A stretch of DNA of 39,537 nt from the NCBI RefSeq assembly GCF_000337095.1, contig NZ_AOIV01000003.1, positions 174,955 to 214,491 on the forward strand, given 5' to 3'. The position numbers and the translations under genes are program-made. Position 1 is the first letter of the stretch. Each line of letters begins with the position of its first letter. Below the pieces are notes generated by a model. That model was not told where the DNA came from. It worked only from the letters and a program-made list of their open reading frames with translations, and made no database searches. Shown here one piece after another: positions 2,550 to 13,640 of the stretch. The stretch is from Halogeometricum pallidum JCM 14848. GTDB taxonomy: Archaea > Halobacteriota > Halobacteria > Halobacteriales > Haloferacaceae.

Positions 2550-4748
2550 TTAGAACTGGTCGACGACGGCGTCGATGACCGCCTCGACGACGGCGTCGCG
2601 GGCGCCCGAGAGGAACTCGATTCGGTTGTCGCGGACGGCGACGGCGGTGACGCCGCCCTCGGGGACGGCCTCGCGCGCGGCGTCGGCGATGGCGCGGATG
2701 TCCACGTCGCCCGTCCCGCGGACGAACAGTTCGTCCGTCGAGGTGGCGACGGTGACGTACGCGTCGCCCTCGCGGTTGCGGCGGTGGAGTTCGTCGACGA
2801 GCAGCGACGTCGGCGGGAAGTCGAAGCGGTGCGTGTACGCCTCGGCGTCGAGGACGGCGACGGTGACGTCGCCCTCCTCGCGTTCTTCGAGGTTCGCCTG
2901 CGCCGTCTCGACCTCCGTGTCGAGTTTGATGCGGAACTGCTCGGCGATGTGACCGGCGAGGTTCCCCTCGACGGCGTCAGCGGCGCGCTGGGCGCCCGAG
3001 GAGACGCCGTCGTCGAACAGCAGGTCGGTGATGAGTTCGCGCTTGTCCTCGTAGGACTGGTAGTACGCCTCCAGGGCGATGGCCTCGCGGAGTTCGCGCG
3101 TCCGGTCGGCGTCGTAGCCGGTCTCCTCGGCCAGTGAGACGTACGCCTCGGGGGTGTTCTCCCAGTAGCTCACGGCGGGCAGGTGGCCGATGTCCTCGCG
3201 GACGTCCGCGTCGAGGGTGGCGGCGAGGTTCGCGCCGAGGGCGCCCGTCGACAGGTCGCCGGCGTCGGCGCCGACCAGTCCGGGACTGACGACCACGTCG
3301 GCCTCGTCCTCGACGTCCTCGTCGGCGTCCGCGGCGTCGACGACGACGCGGTTTGCGCCGTAGACGCCGAGGAGGCCGAGTCCGTCCAGCGATTCGGCGG
3401 TCGCGCCGACGCCGAGCAGGAGGACGAGCGGCAGTTTCTCGTCGTGGCGCTGTTCGTCCTGCAGCATCCGCGTCACGTCGTTCGTCGCCGCGTCCATGCC
3501 GTAGACGGGGTCGTCGAGCGGTCGGCGGGTGAAGTAGTGGTACTCGGCGTCCGCCCGGTCGTGCTCCTCGCGGATGCGGGGGAGCACGGCGCGTTCGACG
3601 GCCGCGCCGGCGACGTAGCCGTCGGCGGTGGCCGGGTGGCGGACGACGATGGGCTGGGATTCGAGGATGGCGCGGTTGATGACCTCCGCGGCGTCGGTCA
3701 ACTGCTCGGTGACGGCCGCGACCGGCGCGTGGTCGGCCAGCGGTTCGACCGACTCGGGGCGAGCCTTCGCCGCCAGCGCGTCTTCGAGTCGCTGGCGGAC
3801 GGCCTCCTCCTCCTCGTCTTCGAGCACCGCGAGGTCCTCGGTCTCGACCTGCAGTTCGTCGCGGCGCATCTCCACCTCGCCGTCGAGGCGGACCGCGTCG
3901 CCCTCGTCGACCTCGGGGTAGGCGCGGACGCCCGCCTCGACGAAGGCGGCGCAGTCGACGACGCCCGTCTCGTCTCGGAGTTCGAAGATGGTCGGCCCGC
4001 CGGTCTGTCGCGTGCTGACGACTTCGCCCTCGAGGCGCACGTCGTCGCCGACACGGTCCGAGAGGCTATCGACGGTGACGAGCGTGAAGCGGTCCTCGTC
4101 GGCGTCCGTCTCGGCCACGTCGTCGGCGTTCCCGTCGTCGCTCGGAACCGCTCGCTCCTCGTCCGTCTCGCTCCGTGCGTCGTCGGTGTCATCGTCGTCG
4201 GCGTCGTTGCCAGCGGCGGTGTCGGCGTCGGTCGACTCGGCGTCTGCGGCGTCGTTATCGTCGCTCTGCGCTGCGTCGCTCTCGTCGTCCGTTGACTCGT
4301 CGCTTCGGGACTGGCTCTTCCCGTTGCCGCGGCCGGAGGCCGACCCCGTCGACCCTTTCGGCTTCATCTTCACCGGGCCGGAGTCGTCGTCGTCGGACGA
4401 CTCGACCGGTTCGCCGTCGTGGTCGCCGTTCGGGTCGTGAATCTTCGACCCGCGGAACTCGCGCTCGGACTGTCGGATGGACCACCCGAGGTCGATGTTG
4501 CCGTTGTCGCGGATGTTCTTCACCTGCACGAACACGGTGTCGCCCGACTCCCAGTCGAGACTCTCCAGTCGACGGTCGAGTTCGCTGCGGTGCAGCAGTC
4601 CCGTCACTCCCTTCGCGAGGTCGACGAACACGCCGAACTCGGCGAAGCCGTCGACCGTACCCTTGTAGTAGCGCCCCGGCGTCAGCTGCTGCGGGGAATT
4701 TCCCCGAAACTCGAACCACACGTCTTCGTCGTGCGTAATCCAATCCAT
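2550..4748 (-). CDS. RecJ/DHH-family protein with S1 and OB domains, catalytic motifs degenerate
   Basis: A 732-residue protein starting at the ATG at 4748 (a TTG four codons earlier is weaker). Domains in order: S1 RNA-binding domain (about 24-92, with GTVDGFAEFGVFVDL); a very acidic Ser/Gly/Asp linker (about 100-220); an OB-fold nucleic-acid-binding domain (about 228-308); and a RecJ-like DHH phosphoesterase region (about 365-732). Active DHH enzymes have an H-x-D-x-D-G type motif and a DHH triad that bind Mn2+, and a GGH-type C-terminal motif. Here these read RHPATADGY (370-378), VVVDAADAD (468-476, DAA in place of DHH) and EGGVTAVAV (697-705). It probably binds nucleic acid without nuclease activity, like Cdc45 or the structural RecJ-like subunits of archaeal replication and RNA-processing complexes; that role is inference. 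The S1 domain suggests RNA contact. Confidence 0.85.
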   Translation of the reverse strand: MDWITHDEDVWFEFRGNSPQQLTPGRYYKGTVDGFAEFGVFVDLAKGVTGLLHRSELDRRLESLDWESGDTVFVQVKNIRDNGNIDLGWSIRQSEREFRGSKIHDPNGDHDGEPVESSDDDDSGPVKMKPKGSTGSASGRGNGKSQSRSDESTDDESDAAQSDDNDAADAESTDADTAAGNDADDDDTDDARSETDEERAVPSDDGNADDVAETDADEDRFTLVTVDSLSDRVGDDVRLEGEVVSTRQTGGPTIFELRDETGVVDCAAFVEAGVRAYPEVDEGDAVRLDGEVEMRRDELQVETEDLAVLEDEEEEAVRQRLEDALAAKARPESVEPLADHAPVAAVTEQLTDAAEVINRAILESQPIVVRHPATADGYVAGAAVERAVLPRIREEHDRADAEYHYFTRRPLDDPVYGMDAATNDVTRMLQDEQRHDEKLPLVLLLGVGATAESLDGLGLLGVYGANRVVVDAADADEDVEDEADVVVSPGLVGADAGDLSTGALGANLAATLDADVREDIGHLPAVSYWENTPEAYVSLAEETGYDADRTRELREAIALEAYYQSYEDKRELITDLLFDDGVSSGAQRAADAVEGNLAGHIAEQFRIKLDTEVETAQANLEEREEGDVTVAVLDAEAYTHRFDFPPTSLLVDELHRRNREGDAYVTVATSTDELFVRGTGDVDIRAIADAAREAVPEGGVTAVAVRDNRIEFLSGARDAVVEAVIDAVVDQF

Positions 4749-4953
4749 TGCGTGCAACAAACGACCCGGGACTAAAACCCTTGTCGAATCGCTCTCGGCG
4801 ACGCGTTCGTCTCGGCGCCGTTGCTCCGCTCTGCCGTCGAATTCGCCCGAAGACGGCCGGAAAGGTCGGCGCTCCGATACGTCTCAGCCCGTCGTTTTTC
4901 CGACGCGGCGCGACGCCGTCGGGTCCGCACGGCCGGTGCCGACCGGGCGACGT

Positions 4954-5556
4954 TCAGATGAGACCCGCGAGGCGGAGGACGTGCTCGAACGCCGTCCACC
5001 CGCCGAACGCGTAGCCGAACAGGAACGCGGCGGGGAGCGCACCGACGGCCAGCGCGCGGCGGGGGCTCACGTCGTGCACCTCGCTCAGACCGACGACGAG
5101 GAGGGCCGCGCCGTAGGCGGTGCAGACGAAGCGGAGTCCGAGCGACGGAAGGCCGGCGAGGACGCACGGCGCCGCCGCGTAGGCGACGACTTGCACCGTC
5201 TCGCTGATACCCCTGCGGTCCCGAACGCCGACGAGGAGCAGGACGGTCTGTATCGCCGCAGTGAGATGCAGCACCGCGGGGGCGAGGAGGAGAGCGACGA
5301 GGGCGAGGCCGAGGAGCGCCGAGACGGCCGGACCGCCGGCGAACGAGGGAATGCGGTCCGGGGTGAACGCGAACAGACCGGTGGAGTACGCGACGGCGAC
5401 GACGACGGCGAAGACGAGTCCCGGCGCCTGGTCGCCCGGTGCGACGCCGTTCCTGAAGAACCGGCGGGGGCGGACGAGCACCTCGACCCACGCGCGGGCG
5501 ACGCCGCGCGGACCGCGTTCGCGCCCGCCCTCCGGATGTTCGACCCACGTAGTCAC
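4954..5556 (-). CDS. Yip1-type polytopic membrane protein
   Basis: A 200-residue protein with a hydrophilic N-terminus containing RPRRFFRNGVAPGD, a hallmark of Yip1-domain proteins (VLVRPRRFF just before the first helix). Four to five hydrophobic segments follow, roughly residues 45-65, 75-105, 120-140, 145-160 and 168-185. Haloarchaeal members are integral membrane proteins of unknown function. The gene ends 205 bases before the RecJ-like gene and starts 9 bases after the thymidine kinase stop, so it is probably the second gene of a tdk operon. No enzymatic motif is visible. The family call rests on the N-terminal motif and topology only. Confidence 0.7.
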   Translation of the reverse strand: MTTWVEHPEGGRERGPRGVARAWVEVLVRPRRFFRNGVAPGDQAPGLVFAVVVAVAYSTGLFAFTPDRIPSFAGGPAVSALLGLALVALLLAPAVLHLTAAIQTVLLLVGVRDRRGISETVQVVAYAAAPCVLAGLPSLGLRFVCTAYGAALLVVGLSEVHDVSPRRALAVGALPAAFLFGYAFGGWTAFEHVLRLAGLI

Positions 5557-11033: not shown

Positions 11034-11528
11034 ATGGAAACGCTAGTAGCGACTCGAAAACCCACGCAGGCCGGACTCCAGAACGTTCTCGTCGCCGTCG
11101 GACCGACCGACAGCGACCGCCTCGACCGCCTCGTCGAGGAGACGGTGGACGTCGCCGGCCCCACCGGCGCGACCGTCGTCCTCGCGCACATTTTCAGCCC
11201 AGAGGACTTCGAGGACCGAGTCGAGGCGCTGGGCTTCGACCGAGGAGCCAACGACGTCTCCCCCGACAGCGTGGCCGTCCGGTACTCCGTCATCCGGGAG
11301 TTCGCGAACCGCCTCGACGCCGAGGGAATCGACTACGAGGTCCGCGGCACCGTCGGCGTCGAAGACGAGGGCATCACCGCCCTGGCAGAGGAGTCCGACG
11401 CCGACCGTATCCTCGTCGGCGGACGCAAGCGCTCTCCCACCGGGAAGGCGGTCTTCGGGAGCCTCGCACAGCAGATTATGCTCTCCGCGCCCTGCCCGGT
11501 GACGTTCGTCCGCGCGGACACCGAGTGA
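11034..11528 (+). CDS. Universal stress protein, UspA family
   Basis: A 164-residue single-domain Usp with the alpha/beta nucleotide-binding fold. The strand LQNVLVAVGPTDS (15-27) and the C-terminal ATP-binding signature GGRKRSPTGKAVFGS (129-143) are clear, so it is of the ATP-binding type. Such proteins help cells through starvation, salt and oxidative stress. A TATA-like GCTTATC (11003-11009) lies about 27 bases before the ATG, and the region 10968-10990 upstream is AT-rich. The gene converges on the mutY tail relic. Confidence 0.92.
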   Translation: METLVATRKPTQAGLQNVLVAVGPTDSDRLDRLVEETVDVAGPTGATVVLAHIFSPEDFEDRVEALGFDRGANDVSPDSVAVRYSVIREFANRLDAEGIDYEVRGTVGVEDEGITALAEESDADRILVGGRKRSPTGKAVFGSLAQQIMLSAPCPVTFVRADTE

Positions 11529-11621
11529 GGACTTCGGTATCCTCGGACGGACCCTTTCGACCTCCGCGCTCTGCTGTGTCGTCTATGCCCGTCCCGCGTC
11601 TCGTTCCGGGCGGGGTGACGC

Positions 11622-11812
11622 TCAGCCGCGAAGCCGAGCGACAGTCTCGCCGTCGCGCTCCGCGAGTTCAACCAGTTCGTCGCTCGCGAGGTCGGAGAGG
11701 AGACCGCAGAGCCATTCTTCGCCCGTCTCGCCCCCGTAGTCGACGCGGACTCGCGGGCCGGGGTCGGTCAAGGGAGTTCGTCGTACTCGCCGAGGGCGCG
11801 ACTAACGGTTCG
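11622..11812 (-). pseudogene. Displaced, frameshifted 3' end of mutY
   Basis: The minus strand encodes RALGEYDEL (about 11775-11803), then one base is lost, and the next frame reads GPRVRVDYGG, EEWLCGLLSDL and DELVELAERDGETVARLRG up to TGA at 11622. It aligns along its length with the last 65-70 residues of the intact mutY (RVLSEYDELALDELGPKIRVDYSP...DDELVEIEDWDGNPTAKLR). It is G+C-rich like the rest of the genome, whereas the tail now attached to mutY is not. So this looks like the native tail, pushed away by an insertion. It has no start codon and one frameshift. Confidence 0.8.
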
Positions 11813-11829
11813 CGCTCTCGCGATGAGTC

Positions 11830-12689
11830 TCGTTTTGCGTCGGTGCTAACGAGGATTCGATTGCCGCCGCCATCGTCGGTACTCTGGCAGCGATACGTAG
11901 GTACTCGATTTGTCACTTGTTTACAGCAAAAGCAGCGTACACCCCTCAAATAAAGCGCTTCACAGGCACGGGCCAGCTAAATCTTGATTTCAGCAGAGTA
12001 CATTTACGCACGTCCCCGGAAGTAACGACTGCGAGTAGGGTGTAGATGTAGGGGGAGCTACCGACCTTGTAGAGAGATGGTCTCTCACAACCCGGCTGTC
12101 CGATTCAGCCAGAGATAGGCGTTTTGAACGCTTCTTCGTCCGATGTGGAGTTCTATCTCAAGAGTGAATTCAGACACGGAGACGGTGATCCGGGGCTTCG
12201 AAGAACTCTGAAACCCCAGTACACCCCGCCGAATCGGGGGTGTATCGCCAGAATCGCCTTCTGAACAGTGTGGCTCTACGCTAGATCCTAGCTACAGATG
12301 CGAGAGCAAACGCCGAGAATCGGACAGACAACCGATGGAACGTCCGAGTGTGAAATCTCGGCCGTCACCCCCGGTCGAGAGCAACAGACACTGCGAGCCA
12401 CCGCCGAAGCGGCCGCTACACCCCGTCAAGAGGACCACACTCCGGGACACAGAGGGGTGTACTCTCCTTCGATCCTCTTCTCACTATACTTGATATCTGA
12501 TATGTAAGTTTCCACTCGCTTCTTTCGCCCGAGCACAGGGCGGGAGAACGGTCGCTCGCCCAGTACCGTGCTCGGAGGATCGAAGTCACCGTCGGGAGGG
12601 AGCGTCGACCCGTGAGGGCGTTCCGTGTTCGATTCGGGCTGACGGTTGACACCGGTTCGCGTGGTTCGCTCGATGACTGGCGAGAGTAA
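11830..12689. other. Insert between native and present mutY tails, no convincing gene
   Basis: About 860 bases, visibly lower in G+C than the surroundings. Two short frames exist (12298-12507 plus, 69 codons; 12416-12718 minus, 100 codons), but neither shows haloarchaeal codon bias or a recognisable domain, and I do not call them. A minus-strand stretch (about 12090-12200) reads as a fairly plausible peptide ending RRSVQNAYLWLNRTAGL and could be a relic of an insertion-sequence or plasmid gene; I cannot name it. Stop codons are frequent in all frames. A short hairpin is at 12220-12244. No integrase, transposase or tRNA is visible. Confidence 0.6.
12220..12244. repeat. Short perfect hairpin in the mutY-tail insert
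   Basis: TACACCCC (12220-12227) and GGGGTGTA (12237-12244) are perfect inverted repeats around a 9-base loop. No gene is close, so this could be a terminator of a lost gene or a recombination-related palindrome. A second small palindrome, CTTCGAAG (12196-12203), is next to it. Confidence 0.5.
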
Positions 12690-13640
12690 CTACCGTAGCT
12701 TGGCGGTCGGATTTCCATCCCAGTCTTCGATCTCGACTAACTCGTCGTCGGCCAACTCAGATACTAATTCTTGGAGCCACGCTCGGCCGTAACTCCCATT
12801 CGGGCTGTAGTCGACGCGAATCTTCGGCCCCAGTTCATCCAGCGCCAGTTCGTCGTACTCACTGAGTACACGAACGATCCTCCCTCGGAACTGTCGCCGA
12901 CTCCCCTCGAACTCGGGTTGTGTCGGCACGTCCGGTGCGGTGAAATCGCCCGTCTCGTAGGCGTGACACCATTTTCGCCACGGACATCCAGCCTCGTCGC
13001 ACCGCGGCGTCTTCCCGCAGGCGACGCCGCCGAGTTCCATAATCGCGTTGTTCCAGACGCACGACTCCCCCTCGGGCATCAGCGCGGAGGCGACGCGTTC
13101 GAAGGCGGTGTCGTCATCCGGGGTATCGAAGGCGCGGTGCAGAACGCGCTTCACGTTCGTGTCCACCACCGCGTCGCCGTTGTCGAACGCGAAGGAGGCG
13201 ACGGCGTTGGCGGTGTAGGGCCCGACGCCCATCAGTTCGGACAGTTCGTCGGGCGATTCGGGAAACTCGCCGCCGTACTCCTCGGTCACCTGTCGGGCCG
13301 CCTCGTGGAGGTACTTCGCGCGGTTGTTGTAGCCGAGGCTGTGTCCGCTCCAGAAGGAGACCACGTCGCTGCGGTCGGCCGCCGCGAGGGCCGCCGCGGT
13401 GGGCCACTTCTCGAGAAAGTCCGCCCACGCCGCGACGACGCGGTTGAGTTGCGTCTGCTGGCTCATCACCTCCGAGACGAGAATCTCGTAGGGGTCGTGC
13501 GTCCGTCGCCACGGGAAGTCGCGGTGGTCGGCCTCGTACCACTCGACGAGGGCGTCGCGCACCGCCTCGACCTCTTCGGGGTCGTCCGGGAGGGCGGGCG
13601 CGTCGCCGGCGTCGAGGGTCGAGGCGTCGCCGTCGGTCAT
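12690..13640 (-). CDS. mutY: A/G-specific adenine DNA glycosylase (MutY-like) with exchanged C-terminus
   Basis: It removes adenine mispaired with 8-oxoguanine or G in base-excision repair. The 316 residues contain the HhH-GPD core: EVMSQQTQLNRV, the helix-hairpin-helix MGVGPYTANAVASF, and VVDTNVKRVLHR with the catalytic Asp. The four iron-sulfur cysteines are in CGKTPRCDEAGCPWRKWC, spaced 5-4-5 instead of the classical 6-2-5. There is no bacterial NUDIX-like C-terminal domain; a winged-helix-like tail of about 90 residues (RRQFRGRIVRVL...) takes its place. From about 12690 to 12900 the DNA is poorer in G+C than the rest of the gene, and a G+C-rich second copy of this tail lies at 11622-11812, so the tail appears to be an acquired replacement. 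The ATG at 13640 gives the usual short acidic N-terminus. Confidence 0.92.
   Translation of the reverse strand: MTDGDASTLDAGDAPALPDDPEEVEAVRDALVEWYEADHRDFPWRRTHDPYEILVSEVMSQQTQLNRVVAAWADFLEKWPTAAALAAADRSDVVSFWSGHSLGYNNRAKYLHEAARQVTEEYGGEFPESPDELSELMGVGPYTANAVASFAFDNGDAVVDTNVKRVLHRAFDTPDDDTAFERVASALMPEGESCVWNNAIMELGGVACGKTPRCDEAGCPWRKWCHAYETGDFTAPDVPTQPEFEGSRRQFRGRIVRVLSEYDELALDELGPKIRVDYSPNGSYGRAWLQELVSELADDELVEIEDWDGNPTAKLR

Follow-up and report, generated by a model that had tools for sequence, protein, structure and literature searches.

The window, as we term the whole 39,537-nucleotide stretch of the Halogeometricum pallidum JCM 14848 genome analyzed here, carries mutY on the minus strand at positions 12690–13640. 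TIGR01084 was the top NCBIfam match of its 316-aa product (E 1.9e-60), yet the match lies under the cut-off of that model. The last ∼60 codons of mutY are duplicated ∼0.9 kb beyond the stop codon, on the same strand and in the same order. When the reverse strand of positions 11551–11850 is translated, this second tail appears in two frames, RALGEYDELP and then DPGPRVRVDYGGETGEEWLCGLLSDLASDELVELAERDGETVARLRG followed by a stop, separated by a one-base frameshift, and tblastn with the window mutY recovers it at E 5e-8. An earlier note on this DNA had described such a frameshifted second tail at 11622–11812; the copy is real, but homology to the native gene begins near 11805, and we place the relic, which lacks its 5' part, at 11622–11805 on the minus strand. 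The contrast in composition that the note had seen by eye is borne out by counting: the displaced copy has 68.6% G+C and the rest of mutY 68.5%, as against 56.0% for the attached last 190 bp and 56.3% for the gap between the two tails. A uspA-like gene lies at 11034–11528 on the plus strand; NCBIfam gave no match for it, and it is named here from its sequence. Searches for tRNAs and known RNA families in the mutY region found none. Besides the relic, mutY is single in its own genome, which otherwise holds only more distant HhH-GPD paralogues.

The native tail can be identified from two members of the same genus, G003 and G004, in which mutY is followed directly by the native flank and a convergent uspA-like gene. 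Neither carries an insert; the empty site for which the earlier note had called is present in these close relatives. The uspA-like gene of the window is 94–96% identical to those beside mutY in G003 and G004, which identifies the flank next to the relic as the original one. The segment from the relic through uspA aligns collinearly with both genomes, with 91.9% identity to G004 over 1.79 kb and 86.6% to G003 over 1.80 kb; the relic protein is 91% identical to the G004 mutY tail. On the mutY side, collinearity with G004 (88.8% over 3.5 kb) extends up to a switch from native to foreign sequence at about codons 244–252. Sliding identity delimits a native part, codons 1 to ∼248 (12897–13640, minus strand), collinear at 88.8% with G004 and 87.1% with G003. 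The G+C-poor 3' end, codons ∼250–316 (12690–12890, minus strand), is set apart by its composition, by a drop in DNA identity to G003/G004 to only about 0.56–0.77 past codon ∼252, and by a two-residue insertion, DYxPxG, of the type found in the islands described below. Collinearity with the two congeners and the drop in identity after codon ∼252 together argue that the relic is the vertically inherited tail and the attached tail the acquired one. Read from sequence, the window mutY has had its tail swapped, and the native tail is now a relic. This agrees with the proposal that an acquired replacement tail displaced the native one while the gene stayed open, which is upheld by synteny with G003/G004 and by intact mutY islands in relatives. 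The 14-bp match GAGTACGACGAACT, put forward as a possible mark of the crossover, is ordinary coding sequence for EYDEL and occurs as well in mutY of G003, G004, G002 (both copies), G014, and G089; that suggestion is dropped.

The gap between mutY and the relic measures 877 bases, of which 540 (11930–12469, no strand assigned) are a copy of a noncoding dispersed repeat that is not part of an island. The repeat is present in five copies in its own genome (that of the window and L104, L105, L106, and L107), has conserved GTACACCCC and GGGGTGTAC motifs and 18-bp inverted ends, and was found among 170 family genomes only in G000, G003, and G004. The candidate reading in which the whole gap is an island remnant is ruled out by this genus-restricted repeat. 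The entry of foreign DNA proposed earlier stands for the acquired tail, but not for most of the gap. Two flanking pieces, also without an assigned strand, are possible island remnants: 11806–11929, which matched nothing among the compared loci of relatives, and 12470–12689, directly after the mutY stop and likewise without relatives. No island matched these remaining ∼340 bp, and a search of 12470–12695 against the family gave short, weak matches only. Integrase, cargo, and att signature were all absent from the window.

A complete mutY accompanied by a second mutY 3' part was found in 18 of the 170 family genomes, the window's own included (∼1/10); 17 were those with two or more tail matches, and G145 was added later. 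The earlier note had proposed a search for inserts at mutY in other genomes; they were found both with and without an integrase. In the first search, of 60 relatives, four genomes combined a full mutY with a second 3' part 15–58 kb downstream on the same strand, and the second part is nearly always downstream on the strand of mutY. In two of the carriers (G089, and partly G146 and G168), it lies on another contig. Among the four congeners examined, G001 and G002 carry mutY islands, and the same arrangement recurs outside the family, in G226, G356, and G415, with carriers in at least two other families. Most displaced parts with a readable start begin at codon ∼161–168. Judged by these arrangements, mutY is a recurrent integration site. 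One contig of G146 (L092, reversed orientation, 682–1128 and 5082–5486) holds two displaced mutY tails, which suggests successive integrations at the same site.

Intact islands, as read from the relatives' genomes, are 15–25 kb long, perhaps up to 57 kb. They switch mutY at codon ∼168 and provide its last ∼145 codons, so that the gene stays open; the corresponding ∼145 codons of the host gene are found at the opposite end of the island, on the integrase side. The island tail starts with the right att arm (TTTGCAGAAATCCATAAT), which is read in frame as F-x-E-I-H-N-A. At the switch, attached mutY genes have the core ACCGCGC[G/C]TT[T/C] or close variants, and island tails continue as in TTTGCAGAAATCCATAATGCGGA (FAEIHNADD). 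In a set of 89 mutY sequences, the codon-168 switch and att signature were shared by 11 carriers and absent from all other genes; the signature was later found also in G141, G174, and G301, each with one mutY. The left end, at the displaced tail, reads for example ATTTCTGCAAT in G014. Together with the right arm TTTGCAGAAAT of G017 and G127, it forms an inverted repeat around the core, with the caveat that ends from different genomes are combined here and that the att arms are less alike in several islands. The putative recombination site would be ACCGCGCG, between ATTTCTGCAA and TTGCAGAAAT arms. In the window, the corresponding position (codons ∼165–172, 13125–13148, minus strand) is of native type and without the GAAATCCATAAT signature.

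On the displaced-tail side, five islands (G001, G002, G014, G017, and G356) encode a distinctive 368-aa tyrosine integrase with the Phage_integrase domain (PF00589) and the conserved R, HxxR, and Y, features absent from the window; it is presumably active, and the islands would be able to excise. Its gene precedes the displaced tail by ∼0.1 kb (G017), ∼1.1 kb (G001 and G002), ∼3 kb (G356), or ∼4 kb (G014). Proteins at least 63% identical to the G001 integrase were the island ones and one in G352; the remaining matches did not exceed 58% identity, covered shorter stretches, and lay elsewhere. The closest match in the window's own genome was 32% identical, plasmids gave matches of only 27–38% identity, and the phage collection held no close relative. 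The combination of a SAM-like domain with PF00589 is common to several archaeal families (PMC8371274) and does not decide membership in the SNJ2 type. By family match, island cargo is largely defense-like or toxin-antitoxin: G001 has restriction-modification and GmrSD genes, G002 has PglZ- and HerA-like genes, and G017 has HmaABC-like and AbiE genes. PADLOC matched none of the G014 proteins tested. The 57 kb of G017 contain repeated transposase-like ORFs, by our reading of the sequence, and may represent more than one element. No integrase was found in the 1–4 kb between the tails of G138, G152, G179, G181, and other short cases. The G001 island (L077, 7681–12734) also carries two C5 methyltransferases, a restriction enzyme, and its own HhH-GPD glycosylase, distantly related to mutY.

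Several relatives have mutY genes that are mosaics of native and island sequence. In G152, codons 172 to ∼240 of the attached mutY resemble the native gene and the following codons match the island tails of G138 and G181 at ∼95% identity; G095 shows a native/island mosaic with an earlier switch, near codon 200. Reverse mosaics, with an island front bearing the att signature, a native end, and no second copy, were found in G141 (L127) and G174 (L128), the product that recombination of the two tails with loss of the island should leave. The window mutY has the form of G152 and G095, with its switch at codon ∼244–252. In a tree of codons 186–316, it clusters with the island tails of G001 and G002 (SH-aLRT 85); with the 67 tail codons alone, support for that cluster is 50 and an AU test does not reject a native grouping (p 0.28), in an alignment with few columns and little power. 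Like the islands, the window has a full mutY with a foreign 3' end and a displaced native part downstream on the same strand, while the codon ∼168 switch with in-frame GAAATCCATAAT arm and a cognate integrase near the displaced tail are absent. Since the window is of native type at codon 168 and switches at ∼250, it is claimed as a recombined remnant and not as an intact member.

We consider it probable that the window preserves what recombination and decay have left of an integrative island targeting mutY, and that this island family made the scar. An island with a tyrosine integrase would have inserted at codon ∼168 and supplied its own tail. Homologous recombination between the duplicated tails, in which mutY codons 218–250 are strongly conserved, would then have restored native sequence at the start of the acquired tail; the att arm would thereby have been lost and mutY would have become a native/island hybrid. 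The island would have shrunk to <0.9 kb, the genus-restricted repeat would have come to lie in what remained, and the displaced native tail would have decayed; the order of these events, and any effect on MutY function, are inferred. This reading draws on the insert-free congeners, the 18 of 170 carriers, the shared codon-168 switch and signature, the integrases of five islands, the mosaics, and the SH-aLRT value of 85. Against it count the lack of integrase, cargo, and att signature in the window, the support of 50 with the tail codons alone, and the failure of the remaining ∼340 bp of gap to match any island. Moreover, intact islands switch at ∼168 and the window at ∼250, so that either an extra recombination step or a different insertion must be assumed.

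A different insertion is the strongest of the alternatives, although we regard it as unlikely: a different, small element would have inserted at codon ∼250 and brought the last ∼65 codons only, its true ends being those now visible, with no recombination step. Native sequence gives way to foreign sequence at almost the same codon, ∼250, at which the relic starts, a coincidence that the remnant reading leaves unexplained; relics starting near codon 250 occur also in G139 and in G461, the latter outside the family. However, the attached tail of G139 is the tail of a codon-168 island, and the two tails of G461 are nearly identical, with a toxin-antitoxin cassette partly repeated, a pattern better read as a tandem duplication. 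Moreover, no intact element with ends at ∼250 was found among the genomes searched, and the window shows no shared att-like core. Small PIN-type toxin-antitoxin-like cassettes between mutY and a second, partial tail were seen in G461 (L122, 2100–3359), G013 (L096), and G106 (L089).

Somewhat less probable again is that no mobile element was involved and that foreign haloarchaeal DNA replaced the end of mutY through ordinary homologous and illegitimate recombination, displacing the native tail. Haloarchaeal genomes recombine readily, the mutY flank is homologous and sufficient for one-sided recombination, and the window lacks integrase and att sites. On the other hand, integrase islands occupy mutY in the same order and orientation in two of the four congeners and in roughly 10% of family genomes, and the attached tail of the window has the island-type insertion. 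An assembly artifact fusing two mutY loci, conceivable in a 45-contig draft, is very improbable given that the relic is collinear with the native flank over 1.8 kb and mutY with its upstream flank over 3.5 kb, at the identities to G004 given above, and that the genome has no other mutY copy.

The mutY islands, of which the window would be a remnant, are reminiscent of the gene-restoring genomic islands with tyrosine integrases known from the Islander and TIGER work (PMC4383910, PMC12884075), in that the target is split, a replacement end is supplied, and the displaced fragment marks the far end. In contrast to those, the mutY island enters a protein gene midway (codon ∼168 of ∼316) and carries nearly half of it, its att arm is read in frame, and recombination between the tails leaves mosaic genes. 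Archaeal elements that integrate in protein-coding genes have been described (PMC8371274; PMC6563490), with 14 of 68 thaumarchaeal elements doing so, in 3'-distal regions and at short att sites. They share archaeal integrases and protein targets with the mutY islands; the passages searched in those reports do not list mutY as a target. ICEEa1 of Elizabethkingia anophelis, also an integrative element with a site inside mutY, disrupts the gene at nt 841 and produces a mutator (PMC5458099), whereas haloarchaeal mutY stays open; ICEEa1 is an unrelated bacterial element. Halorubrum ezzemoulense has low-G+C integrase islands, some with restriction-modification genes (PMC11078007), which are likewise haloarchaeal and integrase-bearing; the passages searched name no glycosylase target, and mutY occurs 0 times. 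No report of mutY as a gene-restoring integration site in archaea was found in the open-access literature, which is weak evidence of absence. A core repair gene would be an archaeal integration hotspot in which the reading frame is kept although nearly half of the protein is exchanged; trees of mutY would mix vertical and island-borne halves, and scars like that of the window would record past island traffic.

In G352 (L118, 1354–8582), an island with a sister integrase, 63% identical, separates a full mutL (692 aa) from a displaced mutL 3' part. No shared core of at least 7 bases was found at G352 mutL. The displaced part covers codons 315–690 and is 55% identical. mutL is a possible second repair gene serving as an integration site. 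A broader reading, which we offer tentatively and hold to be rather doubtful, is that a haloarchaeal integrase family uses repair genes (mutY at codon ∼168; mutL near codon 315) as gene-restoring sites and carries about half of the gene, so that islands with much defense cargo would repeatedly replace and, through recombination, reshuffle half of a repair enzyme, with mosaics as their footprints. Defense-rich islands are in any case linked to repair genes as putative landing sites, mutY and, once, mutL. Separately, an island-type mutY tail fragment with the att signature was observed outside the family, in G265 (L123, reversed orientation, about 4555–4791), 182 kb from the intact mutY.
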